Part shown: piece after piece, positions 350 to 50,632 of the stretch
Numbering within the stretch: the first letter of the stretch is position 1
Layout of the letters: each line of letters starts with the position of its first letter
Assembly (NCBI GenBank): GCA_025267735.1
Contig: CM046304.1
Location: 17,236,001-17,300,000 of the forward strand
Length of the DNA: 64,000 nt
Origin: Mactra quadrangularis
Lineage: Eukaryota > Mollusca > Bivalvia > Venerida > Mactridae
Direction: 5' to 3'
Translations under genes and position numbers: made by a program
The notes under the pieces: generated by a model
The model's input: the letters and a program-made list of their open reading frames with translations, nothing else
Database searches by the model: none
What the model was told of the DNA's origin: nothing

Positions 350-3300
350 CTTTTTTACATACCAATGGACCAATATGTATATTATAATTGTCATTGTAGG
401 AGTCTTTCTTTTTTAGTACTGGCCATCGGTAATTCCATTCATAAGTCACATGCATCAATGAATTCTTAAGCTTACGAGTAGTGTCATTACAAGCATGCAC
501 CCGTCTGAAATAAAATGAACATACTTTGCTTCAAACTATTCTATTCCCCGGTTCACATTACAAAGGGCAATAGTTGGTATTCGGCAATATCGTTTAAGTA
601 CATGTATTTGCTACATTTTCAGATCTGATTTGAGCTCTTAAACAGTTTCTGATGTCTTTAGTCAGTATGTTACAATAAAAATAAGAACTAGACTTTCTCA
701 AACACGAGTTTTAAAATAAATATTAAAAAACAAAACAAATACGTAATGGAATAACTGATGTTAACTGAAATGTTTTACCCAGGTTCAGCCTGGTATGGCT
801 TTGATAATGTTAATGCTACACATTTACAATGTTGATCAACGTATTTAGGAGACCCATTCTCTGTAACAAATACTTCATGAACAGCAAATTTGCAAGTCTG
901 TGTGAACTAAAAGAAATTAAGAACAACAATTACAAAAAAAACAGTATGTATCGTAAAATACTTATGGAAAATATATTTTTGTTAAATTTTAAAGTACAAA
1001 CTATGCAGCTAAACCAATGTTTGACAATACTTCAATAATGGTAGATTGACATTAAAAAGCTACATACGGCTTCACGGACATACAACATACAACACATACA
1101 AACAAAAGCAACGACGCAAAAGCAGTTTCTACCTTGCACCTCTCTGTAATTGTTTCGTAAATTTATAAAAGGATGTAATTGTTATAAATATACCAAAACA
1201 ACATCTAATTGCGTCAACATGTGCAATATTTTTGCATGAAAAATACAAGATCTTTGGCAAATTTGACCTATCTAATAAAAATGTGCAGTCATTAATGATT
1301 CTGACTAATAAAAGGTTTACCATGAGAAACAGGTCGTATGTAATAGCTTTATCTTATATGTCGATTCTTACACTGCTATTAGGCAAGTTCTGGTACCAGT
1401 AAGAAATCAACGTACTGCAAGTACTGTTGGAAGGAATTTTTGAAGGATTTTATCATTTTTAAAGTTCAAAGATACTATTTCGATATTCCTCATTATCTCT
1501 TCTTCATTCACAGTCAACTGTGTTTCATATTTCATTTTACATGCCCATTATTCTACTGATCGAGGGGTCGTAGGTTTGATTCCCGGGCCAGGCATACTTT
1601 CATGGAGCTTAGTTATGAAAACATTTCTACGGTCATTCTCCTCCTACCACTGATTCTAAATCATGTATTTCAATGTCAAACACGTTCTCCTTGACTGTCA
1701 GGATCTAAAAGACATCCGTGACAAACATTTTAAAGTTAACTCACTTGAAGAACTTTTTGAGTCTGTACCATCATATGCGATACTTAACTTTTTGAAGGAA
1801 ATAAATGTTTATAATAAAATATAGAGCTTTACATCAATAATATCGTTTGAAATAATAGTATCATTGATTGCTTTCGGTGCGATATGACCTTTTTGTGTTG
1901 GTGCGCCGTAAAACCCAAACAAACAAACAAACAAACAAACAAACAAACAAACTAAATCATGTAGAGCAGTAGTTAGTCACTGATGCGCCTTCTTGTTGGT
2001 TAACAGCTAAATCCAGAAATTTAGCCTTTTTAGGAACAATGAGTGGATGGACTGATCTCCGTGATATAACATATACAATATGTGTTGCTATGGCGTTAAG
2101 GCCACAACAAATTGATCATATGTTCTATGAGTTTTGTCTTTAAAAAATGGAGAGAGCCAGCGAAAAAATTTTCTCCATTTTGAGAAGCGACCGACAAGGC
2201 GAGGAATAAACTTGTGATATTTTCATGAACATTTATATACCATATGTAAAATACATGTTAAATATGAACTTTTTACAGAAAACCACATTATAAGTGTAGT
2301 TCAGATAATCATTATAAGTAACATTTTAGTGTTTATACTAGTTGGTCATTTATTCAGCATATTGATGTGATACAATAGTGTACATTTAAAGATAAAAAAT
2401 GTCAAAATCTTTCTTACTTGAACTTTATTATTTTGATATTAGGGTACAGGGTATATAGTTCTAATTATTTTGCAGGTTGTTGTGTGAAAGATGACTTGGT
2501 GTTAACATGCGTAAATGCTTTTAATATGGTACATACATCATAAATGACGGTATTGTGTTCCATTTGCATTAACTATTCTTTATTGTTTTACTGCATAGCT
2601 AATACATTAGGTGAATTCATTCAATATTAATCTTCAATTAAATACTTCAAATATTTCTGTATAATTTAGAATCAGCCAAGCGAGCTAACATCATGATGGA
2701 TCAAACCTGTTGATTTTGGTGTTTAAGTAAAGTCTTAATGTTATTGGGTAAATGAGAGATGGACTCAACAACATGCAACTGCGCAATATAATTAAGTAAT
2801 CAAGAATGAGTACTAGCTGAGCACCCCTGTAAAATATAGATAGATGAGTTCTGTTGACTTTTTGAGTATAAATAAAGTTATATTATTTTGATAATATTGG
2901 AATGACTCAACAACAAACAACTACTCAGAGCACTTAAGTCAACATGTATGAGAATTTTAGAGTCAGCATCCCTATAAAATAACAAGAGCTGTCATAGGTG
3001 ACAGCATGCTCGACGTTTCTCAGTTAATCGGTGAATGGGTTTTAATAGTAAGAAGGAAGTAGTAATGATTAAAAAGTTATCCAAGTTTGACTTGAAAATC
3101 TTTCATAGTATTGAAGTTTGTTAAAATTTTAACCTTGATTTTGAATGTTTTCTAAGTAAAAAAGGAGAATAACTCCTAAAAAAGTATGCCAGGGTTATGG
3201 GCCTTTATGGTAAGGTGGGGTAGTGATGATAAATAAGTATTCCAAGTTTGAGTTGAATGTCTTTGACAGTATTGAAGTTATTTAAATTTGTAAAAACCTT

Positions 3301-4158: not shown

Positions 4159-7100
4159 CTGAAACAAATGCAAACAAAACTATTGTTGATAATAACTCCA
4201 CAAATCAATTGTTTTTGACAATTCTATATATAGCACAAAAATTGAAAACAAAATACGACAAAATACGACAAGGTGTTATCGTGGTTCTATGAAACTATGC
4301 TCCCCCTGGCAGCTTAGTAAATACACTGCAGTTTTTTACGAAAAAAGTGAACGAGAGTGAAAGTCAGCCAATGTGTAGGAGAGTACTATGAGACTAGCTA
4401 TGAGACTTGCTGATCAATGCTATTCAAAAGGAAAAGGGTTCTTAAAAATCATAGCATTAATGGATTATTGTAAGTTTCAATTGTTTAAGAGAAATATAAG
4501 CTTGATAATGATTTGTATGTTCCACATTTTTAAGAGAAAATTTGATAACAAAAGAAGTCGTACGCCAGCTTATCCATATACATCGGCTTTATCCAAATGT
4601 CTAATTTTATAAAGAATCCGTTATATATTACACTATATAATTAAGACTTTGGTTTGAAATAAGTTAAAAGACAAAGTATCTTCAATATAAGCTTTGAATA
4701 ATTAAACTCAATTTATATATCACTGTATCACTACATTGACCTCGTTTTAACTACGGTCATTTGAATAAGGGAATTCAGAAGTTTAACAACAGACTTGCGC
4801 TGGCACTAACTGATTAAACTTTTAATGATATAACTCTAGTCTGACGGCTACTAATTAAACTAACATGAAAACTCATGAGCCAAATAGTTAAATTTGTACA
4901 CGGTTTTTATAACAAAAGTTTAAAAAAACTAAAACTATCTCCCTGTTTGCATTTTGTCAGTATTGTTTTTGATTTTGTAGTAGTTCCTGATGTATCTAAA
5001 ACTCATTTCGTTTAATGTGTAGGTTTGCTATGAGAAATGACATTTTAGATTTCTATAACATTTGTTATACATGTATCATAGAACTCGTTTTGTCCTTGTT
5101 AAAAATTTACTCATTACCAATTAGACACTGTGGTACATGTGTTGATGTGTTGCATTATAGTAATTTTGAGACGAATGTGTCCGATTTTAAAGCAGTGATA
5201 TAGAAAAAAGAAATTAACCCTCAGCATAAGTACACGTGTTAAATAAAAAAAATAACTATTTTATTTACAGCAAGTATAATAATCTTACCTTGACAATTGT
5301 TACTGAATATTTTCTTATCAAGACCTTCAAGCTCATCGAAGCTTTTAATGGAATACAAATATTTGTCTATTGGCTTTGATGCAATAGCTTCTACTTCTAT
5401 GGTTGACTCTAAGCCTATACTTATTACGTAAATACGTATATTCTGGTTATAGAAATCATAAAACGAAATTAAAAAAGATAACTCTCAGTGATTATTTTAA
5501 CTACATTGTATTATGAAAAAGTAATTTCCTTATATGTAAGTATCTATACAGTAACTTATATTATCAAAAATTAATATTACTTCATGCAGATGCTCTTATA
5601 ACTTTGAACTTTTGATCTCTTTGACGACCAAGTCCCTTTACACTTAATTCTACTTATTCACATAGTTTAAGTTCGCGTTATTTATTATCATGTATGAAGG
5701 ATATAACGAATCCTATAAGCAGTCAGTTTCATTCCTGCTACGATGTCACTTGAATAAACTCTCATGGAATTGACTAATTGACTAACTACGAACCAATATA
5801 GTATCATTTCCAACTATATTAATAGATTTATTAATTTAAAGATTCAATAGAACATGGCTTTTGGTGCCGGGATTTTAATCTTCAGACATAACGGTTTGTT
5901 CGTTGTAAATATCAATTGTACTTAAATGTGTTTAAATTTATCACTAGATAGTTTTTAATATGTTTTAGAAATATAACAATATACCTTATTTCTGGCTTGT
6001 ATAGCCTCGGGTATAGTTCTTCCAAAGTTGATATTAGACAGACCGTCAGTAATTAAGACAGCAATATTAGAAGCATCAGCACGATCACCATTAGCTAGAG
6101 TAAACATAACCTGTGACATTGTTCGTAGAGCATCGGCAGTGTTTGTAGAACCATACATGTGTTGTAATTTATCAATAGCATTATAAACATCTTTCTCTGA
6201 CGAATAACTGAATTAATATAAAGAAAAGGATCACTTGTTTAAACATACAACCAGTTTGCTGATTGCTATATGAGCCGATATTCTCATGTTAACAAACAAT
6301 GTTTTTGTTTATTAAAAACACACCACTTTATAACATATTTCGTGATATTTTATATGTAATTAAAACTATTTTTGCTGGTGTATACACTTTCAACAAAGAC
6401 CATGTTATCTACCTATTTCATATGGCAAATCGTATTTACGTTTTGATTAAGGCTTACGACTTTTTTACTCATAACTTTTGAAACTAATAATTTGTAATTG
6501 TTGGCATAGTTGTTCTTCAGTCATTACGTAAATAAGAGTGGAAATGTATTTATGTATTTTGTGTTGGATTCACTCGCTTCTGCTCTTTCCATACATACAA
6601 AGTTAGAATGTGACTCAAAATCTATAAAAAACAGTATTTTGTAGGGAGCGCCATATTATACAAGATTTGTCTACACTGCTTACTTTTCCCTCTAACAAAA
6701 ACAGGTTACGGTTCTTGAATATTTATCAGAAAGAGACCAAAGGTATTTAACGTGTGTCCCTATATTTTATTTATGTTGCAAAATTCAATCGTTCAAAAGT
6801 AATTGATAAAAGTGAATAATTGCAAATATGTTGTTAATGGCTTAAATGCAAACACTTTTAATAGCTTATTCATTACGTACGTTATGTCACACATGGCGCA
6901 TTATCTTGTAAAAAATCTACCATATAGTGTGTATTGCTATGTTTAGCGAATTAATTATATATTGTCATGTGTTTTGCCCTTTTGAACATTAAACATTTTC
7001 AAAAAGCATTTCGTGTTTTTCTTAACATTGAAATTTTAAATACAAAAAAAACGATAAGTTTGATTGCGAAATTGCTTAAAAATTTGCTCTTTTTAGAGTG

Positions 7101-10100
7101 TCCGGTTTATTGAACAGTCCGGCAAATACATGTGCGGGGAGTGTATAATACTGATGTTTTCAAATCAAAATATAAATAATTTAATAAGTTCTTATAAACA
7201 GAGATTTACTACTTTTATGTAAATAACACAATTAGTATCATTGGTACATATGTTTACTTTAATATTCCCTTATATAAGTTTATATTCGGTATTAAGACAT
7301 AATTCCTTTCACTCTTCCGTCTACGCTAACAAACAGGTTGTAAATGTCTAATGATAAAATATACCGGAACATTTGTTATTACAACATTGTAAAACTTTTC
7401 ATTTACATTAGTAGTGTCAATTCTTATTTGTTTGTTAGTTTGTAAGTTTAAAGTTTAACGCTGTAGCAACACATTATATAGGTCATATAACGGCGGTCAG
7501 TCAACCTACCTACTCCTCCTGGAAATGATAAATCTCTTGATTTAGCTGTTAACCAACTACTAAGCGCATACTTTCGTCAGTGACTGACAACTGCCCTACA
7601 TAATTAAAAATCATTGGTAGGAGGGAGAATGGGAGTAGAAATAATTTCATGACCAAGCTCCACGAAAGTATACCCCGCTCGGGAATTCTTAAGCAGGGTC
7701 TGCGAATTCAACTATACTCAGTTTGAATGTATAAAAATCTTTTTTTAAATTCCTTAGACATCTAATGTCGTCCTTAATTGTATCAGGGTAGATATAATAT
7801 ATTAAAGCTCTTACGCGTTCAGGTGAAAAATAACATGTACTTCTGTACTGTAAATAACAATTCCCACACGTACTGACCCAGAGTCAATATCAGCGTTGCG
7901 TAAAAAATCTGCCAAGAATTTACGTAACTGGTCGAAGCTTTCGATAGACACACTGGAACTGGAATCCAATATGAAGATCAAATCTGTCTTTCGTAGTCTA
8001 CATTCTGATAAAAATCAAATTATTGAGTTCAAATACTTATCAAAGTTAAAACATTTACAATAAAGGATGAAAAGCATTTATGCTGCTACATGTATAAGCC
8101 ACTTTCGACACTCAGTTTTATTTCGAAGGACAGCCGACCTACTCACTACCTTAAGTATAAGTTAACTACGCAAATATCTTCGCCAATAAATGTTGATTGC
8201 GAAATAAAATAAAGCGCTAATAATAGCGCTGTCCTGACATGGGTCCATTAGGGCACCAAACAATGTTGTCCGATATTGTTAATAATTAGACTATTTTCAC
8301 GAAAAAAAGTAAGTGTAAACCTAAATAGACATCACTGCTATTAAGCAGACAGTGCATAACCGAATGTAATTTTCTGCGACATTTTTGTAATACGTTTCAA
8401 TAGTTGTTGTATCCGAGACTTAAGTTACAAAAAACGCATGTCAAAAAAATCAAGAGGTAAAGTGACCGCTGCAAAAATAGTTCGAGATTAAACTAACAAA
8501 ACCATCAAACCTTAAAGGCATAAAAATAACAAGTTGAACAAGCTATAACCGACGACTTATTATTAGGTTATTTCACAATATGAGACTTTTTTGCTACAGG
8601 GCCAATTTGTGGGTTAATGACCAATAGATTGGCACTCGCGGTGGCTTATATATGAAGTTTCATTAAAAGTACCAAAATAAAAAATGACAATTTTTCAAAA
8701 CATATGGACAATCTAAACCAAACTAAATCATAATGCGTCCTTGTCAGACAATTACAATTGGCATTTTTGTGTAGTTCTAGGATGGATCTGTATAAAAACA
8801 AATAATTTTTGCTGGTATCTGGCATTTTATTTTCTTAGCAAATTAGGACCATTTTACGGGGTTCTTGAACCATATCTTTTTATATTGTATAGATCTTCAT
8901 CAGTCACTCATTCTTGATAAGAAATTTGTACAGAAGGTCTTTGACACTGATATTCACAGATGATCATGTCAAAATAACAAGCCACTGCACACTATAAACA
9001 ATTTTCTCGTATGAAAGAAATACATAAAACATGTTATAAATACGTTCAATACGTGTGTATAGCAAAAATGATGACGGTACGGATTGTGTATTGATTATAT
9101 TTGACCTCGATTAAGGCTTTCTGAAACTATCATAATTTATATACAATATACAATGTATTAAAATATTTTAATAGATTTAAATAAATTATACACTTTTAAG
9201 TGAAACATGAAAAAATCTTATCTATCCTAGTGTTTTATCCAATAAAAAGTAAAATACCATCTTGAGAAATGGCATCATTGACGAGAGGCACTATAATAAT
9301 GAGTATTACATGCTCTAAATTGCTCAAAAGATAATAAAATACTTACGAGGAGTGGACGTTGTTGTCAGCAATGTTGTTATTGAAGAGGAAGGATGTGTTG
9401 ATTTTTCTAATGAACAAAATAAATGTCATTAACCACAAGTTTTAAAGTGAAATAAAAGATAATAGTAAAAGTTCCAAATATGCATTAGGATAACAATTCT
9501 CTTTCGAAACGAGCAAAACACTTAAGTTTTCGCCAACTTAAGCGACGTTAAAAAGTAAAGATTGTGAAACTTTGTTATTGTTTTATATAAATCTAAAGAT
9601 GTGTGGATGATATAGTGTCCTCCGATCAAATTTCTTGCAAATTCGGGACAGGAAAGATAAACAATGCTTAACATATTTTTTCTAACAAGCAAAAGAGATA
9701 CTTTGGCGATTTCTGTGCATCTTCTGAATTACTTATCACAGTATATTGATGTTGGGACATTCTCGTGCATTCACGAGACAGAAAAGAACAACTATGATGG
9801 GTATACGTTTCAATTACGTAATAAAGGATTATCATTTTGCATGATTTATAGTAAGTGATATAAAGCCATTTCTTAGATGAGAAATGTCCTTTAATAAAAG
9901 CATTACGACTACCGATGCATGACTGTTATTATTGTCTCCGTCTGTTGCTTGTGTTTTATTTACTTCTTTTAATTGCAGAATGAAATTCCATACATGTTAA
10001 TTCTTTTATTCATCGCTTAAAATGTAATCGTTTTAAAAGGACAAATGTACATATTATTTTAAACATGCAATTTGAGACAAAAAATACCGCTAATTTTATA

Positions 10101-40100: not shown

Positions 40101-43100
40101 GGCCTGAAGGCGACCAAATAGGGACCAAATTATCTTGCGTCAAAATTCCGATTGATACCCATTTAAACAAAAATGTTATCTCTGAAAATGCCCATAAAAC
40201 GTCTGATAGTAATGTATGGAGTACATGGTTTCCCATTTAGTAAAAGCTTAGGTAATTTTTCACTTTTTTTGTTAATACACGAATTCCTGTATGCTTTTCA
40301 ATTAGCATGTGATTCGTGGTTCGATTCGTGAATCGCTACACATGAATCGTGGTTCGGATCGGATTGCCACTTGCTAAACGATCCACAGCATAGAATTGAA
40401 CCTATTCCTTTGGAACCCAACTTAACATGGTTACGTATTGATACAACAGCAATTATGTTTAGTAATTCAAGTAATTCAGTTGACAACAAACCTTCTGTTA
40501 GCTCTGGAACTTCAGTCGTTATCCATTCTTCACCATTAAATCTTCTTTCAAGATACTCGAAGTCTTTCTCCACAGTATAACATGTAACTAAATAGAAAAA
40601 GAACACTGAATTGATACTTTAAGGAGCGGGCGTTGCCGAACGGTTAAGACGTCGGACTGCAAATCATTGGATCACCATTGCCAGTCCACGTCGGTTCGAA
40701 TCTCATCCAAAACCAACACCGTTGTTTCCTTGAGCAAAAAGCTTTATCAAACCAGCTCAGTATTGGGGGTACCAGGAAGCGGACTCAAAATGACTAATCT
40801 AAGTTGTAATAACTAGTTTCACAATCGAGCTTATACTAACTTGATACTAGTAGACATCGTCAATTCCGAAACTACGAGCAAAGTGGTTCATTCTGCCTTT
40901 TTCGGGAAAGCATACGCGCCGTTTTTATTCTAGAGCATTATCGTCGGTCCTGACCGACGATATAGACACTTATCAAGATTTGAGCACTTTTGTGTCGACA
41001 CCGGTTGCCTTAAGCCAATCAAAACGATACATTGAAACGTGATGAAAAAATAGGGGTGCGTGTATGAACTCGTCGACGCTGTGTTTTGTCGGGTTACCTG
41101 TTTGTATTACCAGAAAATACCATTATTGATATATGAACGAGTACCAGTTTCAAGAAAGTTGCAATATAAGACCAAAAAAAACATGCATAACTAATTGTAA
41201 CATGTTCATTTCTTAAAAAAAGCTTGCATTTGTTAAAACAAAACAAACAGTTCTTCCCTACTTCCGAGCGAGTTAATTAATAAATAAATATGAACGTTCG
41301 ATTAGCTGCCGGAATGTGGGCAGAACATGGTCTTAAATAGAATAATCCGGCTTTTTAATCAAATGAATTTAGTTTAAATGCCAAAATGAACAGGTGAATT
41401 GTGAAATCTACCATAAAAATTCTTTTGTATGTGCGCAGTCGGAACATGTCTGGACAGCACATGTTCATTCGATGGTTTTAATCTGGTCTTTCAGTGTGTA
41501 GAATTAATGAAACGCTCTGTATTCTATAAATGGATTTGGGACGGTTTTAAACGCTGACGCATATTACTTGAATCTTTTTACTCAAAGGAGAATACACGGC
41601 TAAACGACGATTTCAAGCATTTTTGGAAATGCTGATACTTGTTTTACATACAGTACCAATAACAGTACATGTATGTCTCGCCTCTATACATGATTTCAAA
41701 TTTACAGCTAATATTTTGTTGCAATGTTCAAAGAGACGGAGTGGAATAGGCAAATTAATTGTTTTTGATCTACTAACAAAAATGGTTGCGATTAATTACT
41801 AACAATTGCTTCTCTATTAAGTATGAAATCAATTGAGTACGTAGGACTGTAGGCCTATGTATATAAAAGAATGGTTGAATATCTTTCTACCGTAAATTGT
41901 TAACATAGTTTTTTAAAACACATTGAATAATGCACATATGACATAGTTATTGGGTTTTAACATGAAACTGTTAGATGAACATTTAACAAGATCAATTTTT
42001 AAAATGAGACTGAAAACATTTGAGGAACAGCAACAGTCAAAAAGACAGACTTCCTACACTGTCGAAAAGCCACGAGGGAGATGTTTTCAGGTTATTTTTT
42101 GTTATGGGACGCTACAAACAAATGACAAAAAGAAATTAACGGTGTTAAACGGACGGAGTGGTACATATGACATTTCTGTCTATTCATACCACAGATGGTA
42201 AATAATGTTATGGATTGCGTCATTTGCTGAGAATACATGTGATATAATGACATTAATTGAAGCAATTATTTCATTACATACGTGTTTCATGACATAAAAC
42301 CACATGTATTTATACGTAATGTATTTCGATATTTTATCTCTATTACCAACACTGTTGAGTTTGTGAATATTTACAATAATGAACAATTAATGCAACGTTT
42401 ATACCCAGTACTATATATTATATACTTTATACTTTACTGCGATCTGATTAAACCCCGATCTAACATTTTCCGTTCGCCAACTCGCTAATTTAGATCTGGC
42501 CTTTTTCTAATGAGGGTCACGTTCATGTGACCTTTTCTCACTATAATATTCATGACGAAATCGTTATGTTTAGTAACTTGTTTACAATCGCATACTGTGA
42601 ATAATACCGCTGTCAAATTAGCTCGCAAACCTTGGTATAAAAATAGAAATACAAAATCAGAATGCTATTAATAGTGTTTCGTCTAGATGAAATTTACGCA
42701 ATGATTGGTCAACATAAAGGTCATCTCGACGTGACCCTCCATGCGAACCTTAGAGATCCTGACAACGCTCTACAGGATATCTGTTTACGGAGATTTACTT
42801 TAGTGCTGATGCATAATACAAAGTTCTGATATTCATAATATGCATTTTATTTATTTATTTCCTCTATTAGAGCAGAGCATACCAAATACATTTACTTACA
42901 ATATTACAATTACACATACCATACATATAAATATCACAGGCGCGTAGGAGCAAGGGCCGCAGGGGCCGCAAGGGCCGCGGCCCCAATATTCTGGCAAGCA
43001 GCTGCAATGGGAGCGTGAGTTAATTTTTCATGACACCTATTGAACATCTTGAGGTTTCGTTATAATACAAAAATTTGTTCTTAAACAGGTGGTGCTGAAA

Positions 43101-46100: not shown

Positions 46101-48422
46101 ATTTTCTGGCGCGTAACAACGTCAACGTCTTGCCATGGCCCGCTCTTTCCCCAGATATGAATCCCATTGAACATATCTGGGATGAACTTGGACGAAGAGT
46201 AAGGGCTAACCACCATATAAACAGCGTGAACGACCTCACTAATGCACTGCCGGTGGAATGGCAGGCGTTGCCTAACGTCCTAATTAGACGTTACGTACGC
46301 TCCATGAGGCGGAGAGTTAGAGCGTGTATTGCCAGATATGGGGGCACACACGTTACTGAGGTGTTCTAAACAACATTAAGGACTCAAATAAAAATAATCA
46401 ACGCATCCAAACTTTTGTTCATCATCACCTTTAATTCCTGTATTTTTCATTCTGACCCCTAGGTTAAACTCTTACGTCGTATTCATGGTTCGTACAAGTT
46501 ATATCAACAAAAATGTAACTAAAGTGATGCAATGTCTTCAAGGAATAAAATGCATTAATTTTTTTTAGATATTCCGACGGAAACTCAAATTATGCCCACT
46601 TAAACACCATGTAAAGTTTTTTTATTTTGCTGAGTATATAACACAGGGATTTGTAACGAGAAGTAAATGTAATAGATTTTCATCAAATTTCACTGTCGTC
46701 GCTATTATTTCGGCCAATACAAAAACAAGTATAACAAGCTTGAATAAAGATATTCATATGAAATGTTGTACCAGTACCATTAAAATTGACATAAATGTTA
46801 GAAAAAACGTGTTTCTAGATGATTTTAAGGTAAATAACACTCACAGACTGTTTAATAAAATAATGCATTTTTCCGCCGATCTGCCATTTTTAGGCCCATT
46901 TTACATTCCTAAAGTCAAATTTTCGGTCATAATTGCAACAGTTTTTTGTCAAAAAATTCAGAAACAGTTGCATGGAAGACATGTACAAAAACATAAATCA
47001 AGTATTTAAAGTCTGGAATAGTTTGTACAGCCTGCTTCAGTCAGTTATAGACAGTGACGGCCGAGAAAATTAAAAAAGCACTTCGTTACAAATCCCTGTT
47101 ATATAGAATCCTTGGTAATATTCATATAAGAACGATAGCAGAAACAAAATGAGATTTTAAAGAAAATGTATTTAAACAAAGAATGGTCAAATTTGAGGAC
47201 ATTGACATAATGAAATTCAATCATATTGATAACTTCATTTTATGTTAAATACACATAATACATAAAATAAGAAAAATAATGCCAGTGAAATAATACATGT
47301 CTATGAGTCAAACTCAAAATTAGAGTACAAAACATCTAATATAGTAATAATGCGAGACGTCACGATGAAAGTGAATATCACGATGTGGAAAAAGTACAGA
47401 GAAAACAAGATGACACGTTCATTCGAAATCGCGTTCGCTCGACCTATTTTGGAGGTCCCGTCCGAATTCGAATGAACGCAAATGGACTGTATCATGTTCT
47501 ATCATGTCACCAAACAACAACAACATTGATCATATACAGGTACACTCATCAGTGAGTCAGATGAATGAGGGAGAAATCAATATTTCAAACCATTCATCTA
47601 AACCATTCAAACATTCCAAATATTAATCATGGATATTTTAAACCTGTAATTCTAGAAAAGTTACAGTACAATTTCTGCAACCAGAACCATTAAAATAAAT
47701 GGTATTGGGTTTAAAACACAGGTACCCTTTTTCTATCTAAGTATTTGGGACTTCAAAAGTCTTCTATCACTAAGGAGGCCTATATAACAGATCTCTGCTA
47801 TATCACACACAAGAATACAGACTGTCACTGTGTGCGGTAGCTTAACTTTCCATCAATCAAGTTCAAATTCTACACTTGCCGTTTCCAGATTTTTCAAGTA
47901 TTTTTTTGCATAACAATAAGTCAAAACTAGTCAACACCCTCCTTTATTTACTCTTAGTTAGACTAGTTTTGCACTAACCCATCAATTTGAATGTTCAAAA
48001 AGAGATCAGGTAGTGATTATTTTAGAAATAAAAACAGAAAATTCCGGATTCATATTTTTGAGGTTATACATTACTAGAACAATATCCCTGTATCCAGACC
48101 TCCACTACAGTGATTAATTTACAGAGATAATTTTTGAAATATTGATGAAAAACAAGTTTTATCAGAACTTTCATCTGAATATAGATACATGTTATTGAAT
48201 AATATTCGAGCACACCCATGTGCATATGCAAGTATAGATAACAAAGATACAAACATATTAATACCTTTTGCAATAATTTTCTTATTTATGATATTATCTT
48301 ATTATTTTTCAATAAATTTAAGTTTTATACTGCATACGAGTAAATCAAATCAAATTAAAAAGAGAAAAAAACGTACCTGCACTGATGACAAATATACATA
48401 ATAAAGCCAAATTATTCATCAT
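350..48422 (-). CDS. Giant multi-exon mosaic gene for a secreted lectin/adhesion-type protein (whole gene span, 3' end outside window)
   Basis: I rebuilt this gene from GT/AG splice sites and phase continuity. Exons, in transcript order: 48422-48377, 40587-40492, 39823-39458, 39080-38976, 38629-38460, 37962-37830, 37555-37526, 37154-37092, 36271-36155, 35597-35510, 28150-28071, 25412-25243, 24330-24157, 23867-23711, 20292-19976, 19869-19653, 19096-18902, 18507-18292, 17934-17899, 17594-17556, 16701-16462, 16134-16056, 15620-15484, 14777-14535, 13911-13672, 13260-13126, 12733-12590, 11804-11700, 11264-11154, 10276-10088, 9406-9347, 8004-7815, 6207-5985, 5442-5289, 4158-4065, 3595-3476, 504-350. 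Every junction keeps one open frame, about 1,810 codons. Order of domains: signal peptide, ApeC-like, galactose-binding-like, F5/8C, CUB-like, C-type lectin, kringle x2, LDLa x5, vWA. The chain is inferred; some weak splice sites (exons 27, 36) could differ. The last visible exon ends phase 1, so the gene continues left of the window. Confidence 0.8.
1668..1951 (+). mobile_element. 5'-truncated LINE 3' end nested in the SINE, with 12-bp target duplication
   Basis: The insert opens in an ORF that reads [17 protein letters not shown] and ends [16 protein letters not shown] then a stop at about 1822-1824. That is the C-terminal end of a non-LTR reverse transcriptase protein with the H...C of a zinc-binding tail. 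The 3' UTR ends gtgcgccgtaaaacccaaac followed by an (aaac)n tail. It is flanked by the direct repeat ctaaatcatgta at 1656-1667 and 1952-1963, which is also the SINE's own sequence, so the target site is exact. Confidence 0.75.
1917..1951 (+). repeat. (AAAC)n microsatellite tail
   Basis: About eight copies of aaac form the poly-A-like 3' tail of the LINE fragment at 1668-1951. Confidence 0.85.
2989..3475 (+). repeat. Dispersed repeat with about 165-bp tandem units
   Basis: It begins caagagctgtcataggtgac and runs into two full and one partial units. The phrase tccaagtttga recurs at about 3081, 3241 and 3413, with ttttctaagtaaaaaagg at about 3147 and 3313. Head gctgtcataggtgacagc is itself an inverted repeat. 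Short head plus roughly 165-bp tandem units recalls pearl/Helitron-like non-autonomous elements of bivalves, but I can only suggest that. It ends against exon 36. Confidence 0.6.
5289..8004 (-). CDS. Exons 32-34: von Willebrand factor A domain
   Basis: Exon 32 (8004-7815), exon 33 (6207-5985) and exon 34 (5442-5289) encode residues about 1500-1688. The MIDAS metal site is complete: [12 protein letters not shown] (DxSxS) in exon 32, then [10 protein letters not shown] (Thr) and VLITDGLSN (Asp) in exon 33. Exon 34 gives [10 protein letters not shown] and the closing helix. This is the vWA layout of collagen- and matrix-binding proteins. The domain is split by phase 2 and phase 0 introns inside but entered at phase 1. 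A SINE in reverse orientation sits in the intron between exons 32 and 33. Confidence 0.87.
7425..7692 (-). mobile_element. SINE copy, reverse orientation, in the intron between vWA exons 32 and 33
   Basis: The reverse complement of the 24572-24888 family: its 3' end is at about 7455 (aacgctgtagcaacac) with a tail of caaac-type repeats at 7425-7450. Body motifs ggtaggagggagaatg and gaccaagctccacgaaagta are exact family landmarks. It is truncated at the B box, so the tRNA head is missing. No clear target duplication found. Confidence 0.7.
9347..9406 (-). CDS. Exon 31: Ser/Thr-rich linker exon
   Basis: A 60-bp phase 1-1 exon coding for [20 protein letters not shown]. Such stretches are typical O-glycosylated spacers that extend the next domain from the stalk. 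It lies between the LDLa array and the vWA domain. Donor gtaagt is perfect and the acceptor ttttgttcattag is good. Confidence 0.65.
10088..10276 (-). CDS. Exon 30: LDL-receptor class A module 5 with a basic tail
   Basis: The exon starts after tctcttgcag and shows six cysteines: [20 protein letters not shown], then [17 protein letters not shown]. After the module, the frame stays open through a basic tail to a donor at G|gtattt, giving a phase 1-1 exon of 189 bp. A nearer GT would leave phase 2 and break the next junctions, which is why I chose the longer exon. One extra cysteine (LKCDEKW) lies in the tail. Confidence 0.78.
11154..11264 (-). CDS. Exon 29: LDL-receptor class A module 4
   Basis: A 111-bp phase 1-1 exon with the full six-cysteine pattern: [19 protein letters not shown], then [15 protein letters not shown]. 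The acidic DGSDE calcium site is intact. Acceptor tgtatttcag and donor gtaatt are both good. Confidence 0.87.
11700..11804 (-). CDS. Exon 28: LDL-receptor class A module 3
   Basis: A 105-bp phase 1-1 exon with all six cysteines: [20 protein letters not shown], then [15 protein letters not shown]. This is a canonical LDLa repeat with the F.C..G.CI and D..D.SDE motifs. LDLa modules bind calcium and basic ligand surfaces. Confidence 0.85.
12590..12733 (-). CDS. Exon 27: LDL-receptor class A module 2 (four-cysteine variant)
   Basis: A 144-bp phase 1-1 exon. The core [20 protein letters not shown] is followed by [11 protein letters not shown]. As in module 1, C1 and C3 are both absent while C2, C4, C5 and C6 remain, and the calcium-binding DGSDE is intact. 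The acceptor I chose (aaaaaaag) has a poor pyrimidine tract, so the exact start is less certain than the core. Confidence 0.75.
13126..13260 (-). CDS. Exon 26: LDL-receptor class A module 1 (four-cysteine variant)
   Basis: A 135-bp phase 1-1 exon. The LDLa core is [20 protein letters not shown] followed by [10 protein letters not shown]. Cysteines C2, C4, C5 and C6 are present; C1 and C3, which pair in the family, are both missing. The acidic calcium cage is partly changed (ALDE in place of GSDE). Position next to four more LDLa exons supports the call. Confidence 0.78.
13672..13911 (-). CDS. Exon 25: kringle domain 2
   Basis: A 240-bp phase 1-1 exon right after kringle 1. Motifs: [12 protein letters not shown] with C1 present, [37 protein letters not shown]. 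No clear C6 follows the fifth cysteine, so C1 may be unpaired or bond elsewhere. A single kringle per exon with phase 1 at both ends agrees with tandem duplication by exon shuffling, but the two copies are quite different in sequence, so any duplication is old. Residues about 1172-1251. Confidence 0.82.
14535..14777 (-). CDS. Exon 24: kringle domain 1, lacking the first and last cysteines
   Basis: A single 243-bp phase 1-1 exon. Motifs: [20 protein letters not shown] (Y.G......G..C..W), [11 protein letters not shown] (NYCR.P), TLWCYSTDP and TWEYCKL, all kringle hallmarks in order. The residue where C1 should be is Trp (GEWNPSMY) and no C6 follows WEYC. Kringles pair C1-C6, C2-C4 and C3-C5, so exactly one disulfide is missing as a pair. 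Kringles act as protein or lysine-binding modules, for example in coagulation and growth-factor proteins. Residues about 1091-1171. Confidence 0.82.
15484..16701 (-). CDS. Exons 21-23: C-type lectin-like domain (CTLD)
   Basis: Exon 21 (16701-16462), exon 22 (16134-16056) and exon 23 (15620-15484) encode residues about 939-1090. Seen: CSESLKECY at the start, then [20 protein letters not shown] (the W..A...C...L.SI.S helix), [13 protein letters not shown], and finally [20 protein letters not shown] with the closing MCEEP. This is a complete long-form CTLD with the expected cysteines. The sugar/calcium loop reads QPK instead of QPD or EPN, and WEV replaces WND, so classical Ca-dependent sugar binding is doubtful. 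Exon 22 is partly duplicated in the adjoining intron. Confidence 0.8.
15830..16095 (-). repeat. About 130-bp tandem duplication covering the 3' part of exon 22
   Basis: Units 15830-15957 and 15966-16095 both begin gct(c/a)tcgtatcaataatgtc and share the following bases through gaactgg/aaactgg with moderate divergence. The right unit contains the last third of lectin exon 22 and its donor. The left unit is a decayed copy with a GT-like site but no open lectin frame and no acceptor. It lies in the intron just after exon 22. Confidence 0.65.
17556..17934 (-). CDS. Exons 19-20: two micro-exons between CUB and lectin domains
   Basis: Exon 19 (17934-17899, 36 bp) codes for [11 protein letters not shown], and exon 20 (17594-17556, 39 bp) codes for [13 protein letters not shown]. 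Both are phase 1-1, with acceptors gtttcag and cttttttgtag and donors gtgaga. NGT is a possible N-glycosylation site. They are linker exons; calls this short rest on splice signals and phase alone. Confidence 0.45.
18292..19096 (-). CDS. Exons 17-18: second CUB-like domain
   Basis: Exon 17 (19096-18902) and exon 18 (18507-18292) are both phase 1-1 and encode residues about 777-913. Visible motifs are [20 protein letters not shown] in the middle, a C...C pair in YSNCEPPP, and [12 protein letters not shown] at the end, which matches the closing CUB strand (GF.A.Y). This is the standard CUB end signature. The start of the domain, LPTCSF, supplies a likely first cysteine. Confidence 0.6.
19653..20292 (-). 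CDS. Exons 15-16: first CUB-like region
   Basis: Exon 15 (20292-19976, phase 1 to 0) and exon 16 (19869-19653, phase 0 to 1) encode residues about 599-776. Motifs include [18 protein letters not shown], matching the CUB pattern P.xY.....C.W.I, and a following hydrophobic strand IKLIFNKI. Exon 16 gives [19 protein letters not shown] and ends [10 protein letters not shown]. Canonical CUB cysteines are only partly present, so these are divergent CUB domains. CUB modules usually mediate protein-protein or ligand recognition outside the cell. Confidence 0.6.
20830..23263 (+). mobile_element. 5'-truncated Jockey/CR1-group LINE with open RT frame and (TCTA)n tail
   Basis: A non-LTR retrotransposon in the intron between exons 14 and 15, opposite to the gene. 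It starts just before the RT domain; the endonuclease part is missing. After the stop at 22905 a 3' UTR of about 350 bp ends aataaactctatctatctatctatc. The truncated 5' end plus simple-repeat tail is typical target-primed insertion. A clear target duplication was not found. Confidence 0.85.
20836..22905 (+). CDS. Non-LTR reverse transcriptase, C-terminal part (about 689 aa)
   Basis: The frame is open for about 690 codons with no stop, so the insertion is fairly young. Domain order: leader with [20 protein letters not shown] fingers ([34 protein letters not shown]), palm [46 protein letters not shown], and the catalytic [11 protein letters not shown]. After that come the thumb and a conserved C-terminal block ending [11 protein letters not shown]. 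These are the standard RT motifs of Jockey/CR1/L2-type elements. The first codon given is a non-ATG and marks the truncation edge rather than a true start. Confidence 0.9.
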   Translation: MQLHSGIHVIDNIAPVRELRIKQRTAPWITSEILSGIQDRDKAFQTFIKDKTDENFNKFKQLRNATQYQISSAKKDYYKKSIIDNQNDSKSLWKSLKDLGMPSKKNNKSTSNIALNIDNNISFNKLDVANHFNKFFTTVASVLVTKLPTALGQYGRKFVASFYRDQGVVLNSYSFSLITENGVFKHLNRLSSSKATGLDNIPCRFIKDGASVIACPLSHIINLSLIQGVVPDDLKSARVVPIYKKNDKTNVSNYRPVSILSIVSKFFEIIVYEQVEMYLNDKNLLYKFQSGFRSSYSTDTCLLHLTDFIRFKLDKGFYVGMALLDLQKAFDTVDHSILLSKLGLIGFNIDVVNWFRSYLSGRVQYTDINHTLSSPSTVTCGVPQGSILGPLLFLIYINDMAGTVKSKLLLYADDSAILVSSKCKFEIERLLSNDMQTVSNWLVDNKLSLHLGKTETILFGSKPRLKKCSELDIFCNGIKLKTTNSVKYLGVLLDQSLNFDMMVVSIIKKVNARLKFLHRKSKFLSLYAKKLLVMSLLQCHLDYACSVWYFSISQHLKNRLQITQNKIIRFVLNLDCRQHISQDHFVELNWLPVEKRVNQIVLNNVFKIFIDISPSYLHEHFIQASSVHNHNTRFSSESCFKIPSVKGFGKKSFVYNGCYLWNQLPTEIKHTTNTETFKKLVKKHYFTKL
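23711..25412 (-). CDS. Exons 12-14: F5/8 type C (discoidin) domain
   Basis: Exon 12 (25412-25243), exon 13 (24330-24157) and exon 14 (23867-23711) encode residues about 432-598. Seen in order: [12 protein letters not shown] (start with the first Cys), [25 protein letters not shown] (the surface-strand core), [15 protein letters not shown] (Y.V.YS.D..W-like), then [11 protein letters not shown] and CLSFELHGC at the C-terminus. This is the standard F5/8C layout with terminal cysteines that should pair. These domains bind glycans or phospholipid surfaces. Introns between the exons are phase 0, unlike the phase-1 joints between domains. A full-length SINE sits in the intron between exons 12 and 13. 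Confidence 0.78.
24560..24900 (+). mobile_element. Full-length tRNA-derived SINE (24572-24888) with 12-bp target duplication
   Basis: The head has an A-box-like ggctagctcagatgatagc and B box ggtttgattcc, as in a tRNA promoter. A conserved body follows (gcatactttcgtggagcttg, gacgaaagtatg), and the 3' end is tgttgctacggcgttaaatc plus an A-rich tail. Exact direct repeats gcattaagacca flank it at 24560-24571 and 24889-24900. It sits in the intron between F5/8C exons 12 and 13. This is the reference copy for the other SINEs here. Confidence 0.87.
25885..26040 (+). repeat. Direct repeat of about 83 bp, two units
   Basis: ttcttgttttagcattctgc and accttttaaatgaccacaaa recur with few changes in units beginning about 25890 and 25973. 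They lie just 5' of the LINE fragment at 26160. Reverse-strand ORFs there are artefacts of the repeat. Confidence 0.75.
26160..26905 (+). mobile_element. LINE 3' end: C-terminal zinc-binding part of an RT protein plus 3' UTR
   Basis: An open frame (26160-26636, about 158 codons) ends in a [19 protein letters not shown] motif (C-x2-C...H-x4-C), the zinc-binding tail seen after many LINE reverse transcriptases. About 260 bp of 3' UTR then end at ggaggaataaaagtaaaagt. A second fragment near 63 kb shows the same motif and the same 3' end, so both are 5'-truncated copies of one family. No RT catalytic motifs remain. Confidence 0.65.
27075..27631. mobile_element. Foldback/MITE with about 250-bp inverted arms flanked by TTAA
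   Basis: The left arm begins ggtgggtcggtaccttactc and the right arm ends with its exact reverse complement. Arms run about 27075-27325 and 27385-27631 around a short unique centre. Both ends abut TTAA (27071-27074 and 27632-27635), the piggyBac target. Two mirror-image ORFs in the arms ([17 protein letters not shown] on both) only reflect the arm symmetry. It codes for no transposase. Confidence 0.8.
28071..36271 (-). CDS. Exons 9-11: galactose-binding-like (discoidin/F-type lectin-like) fold
   Basis: Exon 9 is 36271-36155, exon 10 is 35597-35510 and exon 11 is 28150-28071 (phases 1-1, 1-2, 2-1). The spliced product contains [18 protein letters not shown], which looks like the W-x-V-D-L-G strand of galactose-binding-like jelly rolls. 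It ends with GRYVLL followed by LFTVKVSV, resembling the closing strands (ARYVRI...L.L.EV.V) of F5/8C and fucolectin-type domains. Residues about 337-431. Exons 10 and 11 are separated by a 7.4-kb intron holding the BEL/Pao element. The fold is an inference from short motifs. Confidence 0.55.
28600..28975 (+). mobile_element. Probable 3' tail of a LINE-like element with (CT)n and (GTTCT)n repeats
   Basis: A region with a Cys-rich short frame ([11 protein letters not shown]), a (CT)n run at 28790-28815, then aataaaggtttgttctgttc repeated at its end. An AATAAA-like signal followed by a short simple-repeat tail recalls the LINE tails elsewhere in the window. Evidence is weak; the Cys-rich frame may be chance. 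Confidence 0.3.
29019..29322 (+). repeat. 5' LTR of the BEL/Pao element
   Basis: 304 bp, TG...CA ends. It carries five copies of c(a)(c/t)cggtggtg (29046, 29076, 29103, 29136, 29168) and a (ta)n run at about 29192-29215. A promoter and polyadenylation role is expected for the LTR, not shown. Confidence 0.93.
29328..29344 (+). other. Primer-binding site, tRNA-Tyr-like
   Basis: tggtcccgcgagccgga starts five bases after the LTR. Its complement ends ...CCGGCTCG..GGACCA, resembling the 3' end of a tRNA-Tyr. The first positions TGG fit the CCA tail. Identity of the tRNA is inferred from memory of typical animal sequences. Confidence 0.6.
29509..30491 (+). pseudogene. BEL/Pao gag (DUF1759-type), frameshifted
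   Basis: Translation starts at ATG 29509 and gives an acidic, coiled-coil-like N-terminus rich in Glu/Lys ([20 protein letters not shown]). The frame breaks near 30040: the reading shifts to a second frame, 30036-30491, that continues with the gag core motif [24 protein letters not shown] and [12 protein letters not shown]. The gag then runs into a deletion edge near 30470. Gag would package the RNA into particles; here the frameshift prevents a full product. Confidence 0.85.
30449..31501 (+). pseudogene. BEL/Pao RNase H / Peptidase_A17-type region, fused to the deletion junction
   Basis: The frame resumes at [16 protein letters not shown], which in intact Pao elements lies downstream of the reverse transcriptase. 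RNase H-like motifs follow ([58 protein letters not shown]). Protease and RT catalytic segments that belong between gag and this point are absent. The first part of this ORF is the shifted reading of the gag end. It stops at 31501 before the integrase N-terminus. Confidence 0.85.
31509..32923 (+). pseudogene. BEL/Pao integrase and DUF5641 region, broken into several frames
   Basis: An N-terminal piece (31509-31721) has the zinc-binding-side motif [14 protein letters not shown]. The core (31628-32356) shows [12 protein letters not shown] (first Asp), [12 protein letters not shown] (second catalytic position, Asp seems replaced by Asn) and [13 protein letters not shown] (Glu). DUF5641 is in two pieces, [13 protein letters not shown] (32357-32566) and [11 protein letters not shown] (32585-32923). 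Breaks: frame change near 31700, stops at 32354-32356 and 32564-32566. This copy's integrase cannot be functional. Confidence 0.85.
33275..33904 (+). pseudogene. C2H2 zinc-finger ORF with acidic tail inside the BEL/Pao element
   Basis: An ATG at 33275 opens two C2H2 fingers: [17 protein letters not shown] (C-x2-C, H-x4-H) and [18 protein letters not shown] (C-x4-C, H-x4-H). An acidic stretch ([17 protein letters not shown]) follows and the frame stops at TGA 33569-33571. Beyond that stop the same frame stays open to 33902-33904 and is strikingly acidic and Asn/Val-rich with a gat/gtt/gaa-type repeat pattern, so the stop looks secondary. Such a gene is not part of the usual BEL gag-pol set; it sits where envelope genes occur in some elements. 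Function unknown; DNA or RNA binding is likely from the fingers. Confidence 0.75.
34152..34443 (+). repeat. 3' LTR of the BEL/Pao element
   Basis: 292 bp, same TG...CA ends and five c(a)ccg(g/a)tggtg motifs as the 5' LTR, with a shorter (ta)n run. About a dozen base differences from the 5' LTR. Confidence 0.93.
35128..35267 (+). mobile_element. Short 5'-truncated SINE/LINE-tail insertion with 13-bp target duplication
   Basis: The insert 35141-35254 keeps only the 3' end (ttgtgttgatacggcgttaa, A-rich tail). Direct repeats ctcactgcaataa at 35128-35140 and 35255-35267 flank it exactly. It uses the same 3' tail as the other SINE and LINE copies here. Confidence 0.8.
36877..36945. repeat. Imperfect hairpin of about 27-bp arms
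   Basis: cgtacccagaggttatcacg... on the left pairs with ...cttgatagcctctgggcacg on the right with about five mismatches around a short loop. Lies in the intron between exons 8 and 9; no further evidence of function. Confidence 0.5.
37092..37555 (-). CDS. Exons 7-8: two tiny phase 1-1 linker exons
   Basis: Exon 7 (37555-37526) is only 30 bp and codes for about ten residues, [10 protein letters not shown]. Exon 8 (37154-37092) is 63 bp and codes for [20 protein letters not shown]. Both have good acceptors (tttcattacag, ctatacttcag) and phase 1 at each end. The first is strongly acidic. Similar acidic or short linker exons recur at 17934-17899 and 17594-17556, so such micro-exons seem to be a feature of this gene. 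Each could be skipped without frame loss. Confidence 0.55.
37830..38629 (-). CDS. Exons 5-6: unassigned extracellular region after the ApeC-like module
   Basis: Exon 5 (38629-38460, phase 1 to 0) begins with a beta-like strand, [12 protein letters not shown], followed by an acidic, Ser/Thr-rich stretch. Exon 6 (37962-37830, phase 0 to 1) contains [14 protein letters not shown] and ends [10 protein letters not shown]. Both have clean acceptors (ttataattttcag, tttatttgtag). Possible N-glycosylation sites (NST, NVT) fit an extracellular product. It may be the second half of the ApeC-like fold, but I cannot assign a family. Residues about 205-305. Confidence 0.6.
38976..39823 (-). CDS. Exons 3-4: ApeC-like (apextrin C-terminal-like) module
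   Basis: Exon 3 (39823-39458, 366 bp) and exon 4 (39080-38976, 105 bp) are both phase 1-1. Exon 3 has two matching half-repeats: [20 protein letters not shown] near its start and [20 protein letters not shown] at its end. They are separated by a Cys/Trp-rich middle with LNFCQRSN. The W-P-x-G/E-x-Y/F-x-L...C-P-x-G pattern, followed by F and an LP motif in exon 4, resembles the ApeC domain of apextrins and related invertebrate proteins. Some ApeC proteins are known to bind microbial wall components. The match is by eye and divergent; a novel Cys-rich module is possible. Predicted residues are about 48-204. Confidence 0.6.
40492..40587 (-). CDS. Exon 2: N-terminal linker of the mature protein
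   Basis: This 96-bp phase 1-1 exon follows a strong acceptor (ttctttttctatttag) and ends at G|gtttgt. It codes for about 32 residues beginning [12 protein letters not shown] and ending with an acidic stretch, TEVPELTE. No domain is recognised. It joins the signal peptide to the ApeC-like module. An apparent ORF start here is a GTG inside the polypyrimidine tract, not a real initiator. Confidence 0.65.
40620..40800 (+). mobile_element. tRNA-Ser/Leu-like SINE head in intron 1
   Basis: ggcgttgccgaacggttaag looks like the D arm and A box of a class-II tRNA, and cggttcgaatctcatc is a good B box. A long variable-arm-like spacer lies between. The anticodon stem is mismatched, so it is not a working tRNA. 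The downstream ~90 bp (accaacaccgttgtttcctt...) is likely SINE body. Different family from the 24572 SINE. Confidence 0.5.
42441..42795 (+). repeat. MITE-like dispersed repeat, copy 1
   Basis: Matches 61466-61860 along its length. Inner inverted repeats: agggtcacgttcatgtgacc on the left and ggtcatctcgacgtgaccct on the right. A hairpin-prone start (cccgatctaa...ttagatctgg) and end (acaacgctctacaggatat). No coding capacity. Copy 1 lacks about 35 bp present in copy 2. Confidence 0.72.
42970..43000 (+). repeat. GC-rich 9-bp minisatellite
   Basis: gggccgca(g/a) repeats about three to four times (caagggccgcaggggccgcaagggccgcggcc) in otherwise AT-rich DNA; probably part of an older dispersed repeat. 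Confidence 0.5.
43306..44260. mobile_element. pogo/Tigger-like MITE with TA target duplication
   Basis: The element (43308-44258, 951 bp) begins CAGTCCAACCTGTGAAC and ends with the near reverse complement ...CACAAGTTGGACTG, flanked by TA on each side. TA target sites and CAGT-starting ends fit the Tc1/mariner-pogo group. Subterminal GGCC-rich sequence occurs at both ends (aacggccggcc; gatggccgtt). Interior has no transposase; it is a non-autonomous copy in intron 1. Confidence 0.72.
44537..44613 (+). repeat. tRNA-like SINE head (Thr-TGT-like)
   Basis: gccggatagctcagtcggga is an A-box arm, cttgccctgtaagcgag an anticodon arm with a TGT-like loop, and gggttagagtcccgg the T arm. The T loop is ttagagt instead of ttcgaat, and the acceptor arms mismatch at two places, so this is a SINE head or decayed tRNA, not a functional gene. 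Confidence 0.6.
45581..46369 (+). mobile_element. Tc1-like transposase fragment, DDE core intact, N-terminus lost
   Basis: An open frame to 46369 (last residues VTEVF) carries the whole catalytic core: [11 protein letters not shown] (first Asp), [11 protein letters not shown] (second Asp), and [20 protein letters not shown] (Glu), with the spacing of a DD34E transposase. The open frame begins inside the helix-turn-helix part ([15 protein letters not shown]); just upstream the related reading is in another frame, suggesting a one-base shift, and further N-terminal sequence is gone. I found no terminal inverted repeats, so it is a dead fragment in intron 1. Richer in GC than its surroundings. 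Confidence 0.88.
48377..48422 (-). CDS. Exon 1: start codon and signal peptide
   Basis: Two consecutive ATG codons open a 15-codon hydrophobic stretch, [15 protein letters not shown], which then reaches a donor (G|gtacgt) in phase 1. This is a typical short, h-region-rich secretory signal. The phase matches exon 2 (40587), giving a junction valine just before [13 protein letters not shown] box lies 42-49 bp upstream of the first ATG. The exon was chosen because the exon-2 block has a clear acceptor (ttctttttctatttag) and no ATG of its own, so it needs an upstream phase-1 donor. The intron between them is about 7.8 kb. I am fairly sure of the pairing, but a transcript would be needed to exclude an extra small exon inside this intron. 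Confidence 0.72.
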
Positions 48423-50630: not shown

Positions 50631-50632
50631 TC

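Follow-up and report, generated by a model that had tools for sequence, protein, structure and literature searches.

A predicted relaxin-receptor-like GPCR with a mosaic ectodomain and a candidate captured VWA cassette in the clam Mactra quadrangularis

Molluscs recognise many microbes without vertebrate-type adaptive immunity. The human relaxin receptor RXFP1, a G-protein-coupled receptor (GPCR), possesses a single LDLa module and is not known to carry lectin-type or other mosaic modules. Activation of RXFP1 requires this LDLa module, and its leucine-rich repeats (LRRs) are thought to bind relaxin, according to PMC8286064. In snails, SudRes2, which is linked to schistosome resistance, is described in excerpts of PMC12297450 as holding ten GRL101-like genes with LDL, CTL and LRR; the same excerpts place the validated and top variants of SudRes2 in a neighbouring Zn-RING-IAP gene and not in the GRL101 genes. 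PMC9585378 states that ApeC proteins of amphioxus bind peptidoglycan, and the title of that paper names two mollusc ApeC proteins as peptidoglycan recognisers. The locus analysed here lies in a window of 64,000 nucleotides of Mactra quadrangularis (C12:17236001-17300000, within a genome of 979 Mb), which appears to contain the first 37 of the 45 exons of a GRL101-type, relaxin-receptor-like GPCR with a mosaic ectodomain. Such a receptor would likely capture microbial or tissue ligands and signal to G protein, and we place the probability of this reading at about 0.8.

The predicted gene and its extent

On the minus strand of the window, 37 exons running from 48419 to 350 form a single open frame with no internal stop. 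This agrees with a preliminary description of the same DNA, which had joined 37 exons into one open frame, and the rebuilt chain recurs in two paralogs. The chain was rebuilt from DNA using splice-site scoring and frame constraints, and all of its exons are predictions. An unconstrained gene finder over-predicts in this region (152 and 169 exons per strand, and 94, 43 or 30 depending on the penalty), and for this reason homologous segments served as anchors for the final model, in which donors had to be GT or GC, acceptors AG, and phases had to match. The first methionine falls at 48419 or 48422, and the 5' boundaries of exons 26, 27 and 36 could each shift by a few residues. Two assignments were dropped along the way: the end of exon 14 at 23675, where a donor is absent in both paralogs, was moved to 23711, and positions 20080-20029 were removed from exon 15, as this stretch is skipped by a hypothetical protein of Mactra antiquata (ACF0H5_003596, 2791 aa; hereafter P0122).

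Past 350 the frame continues beyond the left edge of the window, in exon 38 (from C12:17235944 downward). The flank was found in a genome search with the best homolog, whose LRR and 7TM segments match directly to the left of the window on the same strand. Eight further exons on that strand occupy the 10.3 kb left of the window, ending in a stop at C12:17225724, and they encode two LDLa modules, a segment resembling VWA, leucine-rich repeats, a complete 7TM of the rhodopsin type and a short tail that is kinase-like. With exon 14 corrected, the complete predicted gene has 45 exons and extends from ATG to TAA over 2738 aa without an internal stop, with a mosaic ectodomain predicted at about 2,300 residues. 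On the DNA alone, exons 1-45 thus read as one predicted gene with a full open frame. The earlier wording of one chain and a "receptor" is borne out in the same way, since the frame runs on to LRRs and a 7TM and the paralogs are collinear.

C12:13229566-13293105 and C17:43769816-43824015 (the C12:13.23M and C17:43.77M paralogs) each contain the complete set of 45 exons, collinear and on a single strand. Because the exons recur in order and frame at these two loci, and because P0122 is collinear, the 37-exon chain is not a product of chance. Before the donor of exon 14 was shifted, 43 of the 45 exons in each paralog were open with AG/GT sites, with exon 14 failing in both; in the C12:13.23M paralog the donor of exon 20 is GC, and no AG is present at the homologous place for exon 26 in the C17:43.77M paralog. 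After the shift the three frames are open at 2738, 2738 and 2743 aa.

Most of the introns (31/44) are in phase 1. Introns 1, 10 and 43 are long, at 4-8 kb, with intron 1 measuring 7.8 kb here and 8.4 and 6.4 kb in the C12:13.23M and C17:43.77M paralogs, respectively. These long introns, together with the transposon frames in introns 1, 10 and 14, would be compatible with two or more genes, that is, a secreted mosaic protein neighbouring a separate GPCR. However, order, strand and phase are the same in the two paralogs, and single protein models with this order exist in many bivalves, although these are themselves models. Since the paralogs and the homolog models keep one chain, separate genes were rejected as highly improbable. 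The mobile-element frames of the region are listed at the foot of Table 1; the frames upstream of the gene fall in a stretch of raised GC (0.42 vs about 0.31 at most other places in the window).

Table 1. Predicted features of the receptor gene in the window, and mobile-element frames in and around it. Positions are those of the window; exon limits are given in brackets.
Feature	Position	Strand	Evidence
Exon 1: start codon and likely signal peptide	48377..48419	-	14/14 identical in C12:13.23M and C17:43.77M
Exon 2: N-terminal segment ahead of ApeC	40492..40587	-	P0122 71% identical over residues 19-52
Exons 3-5: ApeC domain and its downstream part	38460..39823 (39823-39458, 39080-38976, 38629-38460)	-	PF16977 4.6e-6 on ORF, 5e-7 spliced; 59% identical to P0122
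Exons 6-11: segment between ApeC and discoidin	28071..37962 (37962-37830, 37555-37526, 37154-37092, 36271-36155, 35597-35510, 28150-28071)	-	55% identical to P0122
Exons 12-14: F5/8 type C (discoidin)	23711..25412 (25412-25243, 24330-24157, 23867-23711)	-	PF00754 5.7e-9
Exons 15-16: CUB-like unit 1	19653..20292 (20292-20081, 19869-19653)	-	CUB 13.4 bits, cut-off 21.4; relatives pass at same place
Exons 17-18: CUB-like unit 2	18292..19096 (19096-18902, 18507-18292)	-	In-family profile
Exons 19-20: short linker exons	17556..17934 (17934-17899, 17594-17556)	-	Splice-constrained chain and paralogs
Exons 21-23: C-type lectin	15484..16701 (16701-16462, 16134-16056, 15620-15484)	-	PF00059 1.9e-9
Exon 24: kringle 1	14535..14777	-	PF00051 4.3e-14
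Exon 25: kringle 2	13672..13911	-	PF00051 5.2e-14
Exons 26-30: LDLa 1-5 and fibrinogen-like module, first part	10088..13260 (13260-13126, 12733-12590, 11804-11700, 11264-11154, 10276-10088)	-	Five LDLa by reading
Exons 31-33: VWA cassette	5289..8004 (8004-7815, 6207-5985, 5442-5289)	-	PF00092 3.8e-36
Exons 34-37: fibrinogen-like module, remainder	350..4158 (4158-4065, 3595-3517, 897 or 906 to 779, 504-350)	-	Splice-constrained chain and P0122
Intron 14: non-LTR retrotransposon reverse transcriptase frame	20827-22905	+	RVT_1 2.3e-32
Intron 10: BEL/Pao-type pieces in several separate frames	29470-32923	+	Peptidase_A17 1.9e-47, Integrase_H2C2 7.5e-7
Short C2H2 zinc-finger frame beside BEL/Pao pieces	33263-33568	+	24.7 bits, cut-off 25.2
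Intron 1: Tc1-like transposase frame	45581-46366	+	DDE_3 1.1e-14
Upstream of gene: non-LTR retrotransposon frames	49985-53248	-	RVT_1 1.6e-36, Exo_endo_phos 8e-14

GPCR core, ectodomain modules and related proteins

The 7TM encoded in the left flank matches the rhodopsin-type profile over its full length (PF00001 4.1e-30, aligned 1-260 of 260) and carries CWFP, NPIIY and DRV, which we take to be the GPCR motifs of this 7TM. An LRR ectodomain (LRR_8 2e-15) and a hinge adjoin it, in a chain that also holds seven LDLa modules. The PDB chain best matching the LRR and 7TM together is human RXFP1 (7tmw, 2.4e-58), with the FSH receptor at 1.1e-32, and the alignment to RXFP1 spans LRR, hinge and 7TM; RXFP1 also shares the presence of an LDLa module. 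Searched alone, the 7TM again matches RXFP1 (1.8e-46; next chain 4.4e-26). All four elements of the snail form of the GRL101-like domain set (LDLa, LRR, 7TM and CTL) occur in one chain. The gene is therefore predicted to encode a relaxin-receptor-like class A GPCR, the window covering exons of its ectodomain. The core of adhesion GPCRs consists of GAIN/GPS and 7tm_2, for which no Pfam match was found at E<=1 in the full-length chain; an adhesion-class GPCR was rejected on the absence of a GPS/GAIN match.

The receptor chain appears to be under selective constraint, with an overall dN/dS of 0.34-0.35 in three comparisons (bootstrap intervals 0.25-0.45, 0.29-0.44 and 0.29-0.42). Values vary widely by segment, from the 7TM, one of the most tightly constrained regions (w 0.11-0.21), to LDLa 1-2, which reach 1.23 in one of the three comparisons, a value that was not bootstrapped. 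No bootstrapped part has a dN/dS above 1, so an arms race is not favoured.

The preliminary description had listed ApeC-like, discoidin, CUB, C-type lectin, VWA, two kringle and five LDLa modules, and this list stands in part. A full-length Pfam scan, made on a 2750-aa version that precedes the exon 14 correction, recovered seven LDLa modules, VWA, 7tm_1, two kringles, LRR and F5_F8 (E-values as given above and in Table 1), but neither ApeC, Lectin_C nor CUB appeared in that scan of the spliced chain. ApeC passes its Pfam cut-off on a separate spliced segment only (30.2 bits against a cut-off of 26.5), and Lectin_C likewise passes on a separate spliced segment. The CUB entry gives way to two CUB-like units. 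The segment of exons 15-16 scores under the CUB cut-off, and it is read as CUB because the relatives P0124 (22.0 bits) and P0129 (32.9 bits) pass at the corresponding place. An in-family profile of the second unit matches 55 of 62 relatives, partly at the places of the first unit, and the second unit alone gave no CUB Pfam match. ApeC and CUB are thus weak matches in the predicted gene.

Exons 6-11 gave no Pfam match near the cut-off, a PDB profile search returned only one hit at E=0.53 and another, to an F-type-lectin-like platelet aggregation factor, at E=1.3, and the predicted structure of the P0122 counterpart has a pLDDT of 37; this segment is possibly a divergent galactose-binding-like domain. 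LDLa 1 and 2 (exons 26-27, 13260-12590) are without cysteines 1 and 3, the two partners of one pair in the LDLa fold, and the P0122 counterparts lack them likewise. The lectin domain reads DQPK and presumably does without the usual EPN/QPD triplet. Exons 30 and 34-38 are taken here to be a Caspr/fibrinogen-like module, a label that received no Pfam support on the spliced segments, and the second, degenerate VWA-like segment left of the window gave no Pfam match.

A first protein search covering 139 proteins found the Mactra antiquata receptor P0007, and the homologs taken for comparison are P0122, P0121, P0007 and P0123. P0122 is collinear over the whole chain, being 54-82% identical in 15 of 16 segments, of which the sixteenth is the missing VWA, and shares the kringles, seven LDLa modules, LRR and 7TM as well as a similar tail. 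This unnamed protein differs in having no VWA at the place of the cassette and in possessing three kringles, with the extra one directly after the lectin. For a wider comparison, domains were counted in 62 proteins (P0007 and P0121-P0181) of a list of 101, for which the 7980 candidates sharing most words were scored, with the lower 39 rows (P0182-P0220) left out. The domain and tail counts among relatives use profiles built from the same family and are therefore not independent. A 7TM match is present in 61 of the 62 selected relatives, and among these 61 the ApeC domain is found in 31, discoidin in 42, CUB-like units in 55, the lectin in 54 and window-like kringles in 15. ApeC, discoidin, CUB-like, lectin, fibrinogen-like and 7TM are all present in 30/61 and occur in that order in 28/61, two spider proteins differing.

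Because 28 of 61 relatives share the module order, the base architecture appears to be that of an existing, mostly unnamed family, and the basic plan is not unique. The earlier statement that no standard animal protein has this order is partly wrong: window-like kringles too are present in seven of the 28 same-order relatives, and only a VWA after the fifth LDLa is found in none of the 62 proteins. In the Mercenaria proteins P0124-P0126 a kringle lies inside the unassigned ApeC-discoidin segment, so that here, as with the VWA cassette, one module interrupts another. The Mactra model P0162 (3040 aa) is a receptor that also carries PLAT and P450 domains and is probably a fused gene model.

The VWA cassette

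The VWA cassette consists of three exons with phase 1 at both ends, and it splits a module that is continuous in homologs. The metal site is present as DSSSS, which we take to be the DxSxS motif. In P0122, P0121 and P0007 the absence of the VWA is a gap of 189/190 residues, and in P0123 of 190; no match to the cassette was found in the 62 related proteins at E<=10. A genome search with exon 32 returned at least 37 matches, four of which, at 81-100% identity, lie in receptor loci. With a receptor locus defined by a 7TM exon that is full-length, free of stops and at least 73% identical, the cassette occurs in 4 of 11 close receptor loci, exactly those whose 7TM exons are 94-100% identical; such genome counts are lower bounds. 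A twelfth 7TM match (84%) is partial and stands outside the 11, and none of the other 33 exon 32 matches falls in the remaining seven.

The next best exon 32 match, at 69%, lies in an array of VWA exons at C5:27729836-27788345, and this array keeps the same three-exon split (71, 69 and 72% identity). Six tandem-VWA proteins match the cassette strongly, and the proteins nearest to the VWA bear the name collagen-VI-like. The C5 array is perhaps the counterpart of a tandem-VWA CO6A3-like protein of Mya. On the simplest reading, we infer that the cassette was captured from this C5 array or from a related one. Phase-1 introns would let whole modules join without a break in frame, a route by which the VWA may have entered and kringle numbers may have changed. 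The event looks like clean exon shuffling, with an identifiable likely source array, phase, point of insertion and set of four descendants.

The constraint on the VWA is weaker than that on the chain overall, with dN/dS of 0.94 (0.21-3.81), 0.62 (0.36-1.14) and 0.56 (0.34-0.96). This looser constraint could instead indicate that the VWA exons, lying between exons 30 and 34, form a nested unit or one that is mostly skipped, outside the mature chain; homolog proteins pass directly from exon-30 to exon-34 residues, and skipping an insert that divides a module would preserve the frame. Against this, all four copies of the cassette keep an open frame and their AG and GT sites, and the cassette is in phase 1 at both ends. 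We regard a skipped or nested unit as improbable and favour a VWA that forms part of the receptor.

Kinase-like tail, proposed function and comparison with known receptors

Exons 44-45 (C12:17225724-17226397) encode a 123-aa tail. When a profile of 13 family tails, its own included, was compared with PDB chains, the best 60 of 1406 chains at E<=10 were all kinases (best 8e-9). For a structure model of the P0122 tail (pLDDT 86), the 50 Foldseek matches listed are all kinase-fold, none of them at E<=0.001. Pfam on the tail itself placed the kinase family at 0.044 and the unrelated family SRAP slightly better at 0.017, both under cut-off. The tail reads IEN at the HRD position, only L, H and G are invariant among the 13 tails, and the kinase motifs HRD and DFG are presumably not kept. 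Lacking HRD, DFG and the full length of an active protein kinase, the predicted tail resembles a degenerate kinase C-lobe, and it may act as a non-catalytic docking piece. The in-family profile finds the tail in 48 of 61 relatives; a separate search of tails covered 44 of the 62, namely those left after 13 without an NPxxY and 5 with tails shorter than 60 aa. In the coral relative P0177 the tail is longer and matches PK_Tyr_Ser-Thr at 4.6e-6.

In the proposed mechanism, the receptor would sit at the plasma membrane and expose ApeC, discoidin, CUB-like, lectin, kringle and VWA modules as its outermost part. These outer modules would catch a ligand, the LRR and hinge would relay the event to the 7TM, and the 7TM would pass it to G protein, with the LDLa/LRR/hinge part acting as in RXFP1. 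Microbial or damaged-tissue patterns are favoured as ligands because ApeC proteins bind peptidoglycan and GRL101-like genes lie in SudRes2, and we give a microbe-sensing, pattern-recognition ligand class roughly even odds. The "recognition or adhesion factor" of the preliminary description missed the LRRs and 7TM outside the window, which make the predicted product a relaxin-receptor-like GPCR; its innate recognition role is still a matter of deduction, for which the available part of PMC12297450 supplies a snail precedent.

As RXFP1 is the closest solved relative, the LRRs might instead bind an insulin/IGF-like peptide as a hormone, the outer mosaic tuning access or serving as an anchor. The available text of PMC8286064 posits GRL101 as a second IGF receptor, with its LRRs binding the insulin core and its LDLa a positive tail, and the strong constraint on the 7TM would be in keeping with such a role. 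Eleven close loci with changing outer modules fit a single hormone less well, however, and the same text gives one GRL101 per ambulacrarian species; a hormone receptor is thus considered unlikely. It is also conceivable that the receptor serves adhesion, self-recognition or chemosensation, with the VWA, discoidin, kringle and fibrinogen-like modules holding matrix or cell and tension or contact opening the 7TM. The likeness of the VWA to collagen-VI-like-named proteins would suit this, as would the higher level of starfish GRL101 in sensory tentacles vs tube feet (PMC6267866, in part), but the lack of any GAIN/GPS or 7tm_2 match at E<=1 speaks against it and we judge it unlikely. The GRL101-type receptor with ligand-catching outer modules remains the preferred reading. 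A bolder extension of that reading, less likely than not, is that these are a germline family of cassette-exchange pattern-recognition GPCRs on a relaxin-receptor chassis, whose phase-1 introns take up whole modules (here the VWA from a collagen-VI-like gene, in other cases kringles) and which carry a pseudokinase relic inside.

A GPCR with lectin-, ApeC-, kringle- and VWA-type modules would link the recognition of patterns straight to rapid signalling through G protein, and SudRes2 suggests that such receptors can matter in parasite resistance. Among the open-licence papers listed on GRL101, ApeC and kringle/VWA GPCRs we found no description of this receptor architecture. What appears to be new is the combination of a captured VWA and a kinase-like relic on a relaxin-receptor-type family with a little-documented module set.

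Compared with described systems, the clam receptor shares parts with each. The Biomphalaria SudRes2 GRL101-like receptors are also clustered GPCRs with LRR, LDLa and C-type lectin; they are defined by LRR, LDL and CTL, and the word "kringle" is absent from the available text of PMC12297450. Amphioxus Adhesion GPCRs possess the same kinds of modules (Kringle, Lectin C, LDLa, CUB and discoidin), as listed in the accessible portion of PMC2246102, but belong to the Adhesion family, while the clam receptor has 7tm_1 and no GPS/GAIN match. Mollusc ApeC-containing proteins share the ApeC domain and include two groups with complex architectures; in the mollusc ApeC text of PMC9585378, as far as it is available, GPCR, 7tm, transmembrane, kringle and LDL are all absent. 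No report of a bilaterian GPCR-kinase fusion line was found in the open-licence literature, and the kinase-like tail, if confirmed, would extend such fusions to bilaterians. The choanoflagellate and sponge GPCR-TK and GPCR-TKL/K proteins likewise have a 7TM joined to a C-terminal kinase-type domain, according to the available part of PMC12716839; unlike these, the clam receptor is predicted to have a 7TM of the relaxin-receptor type, followed by no more than a degenerate stretch resembling a C-lobe.
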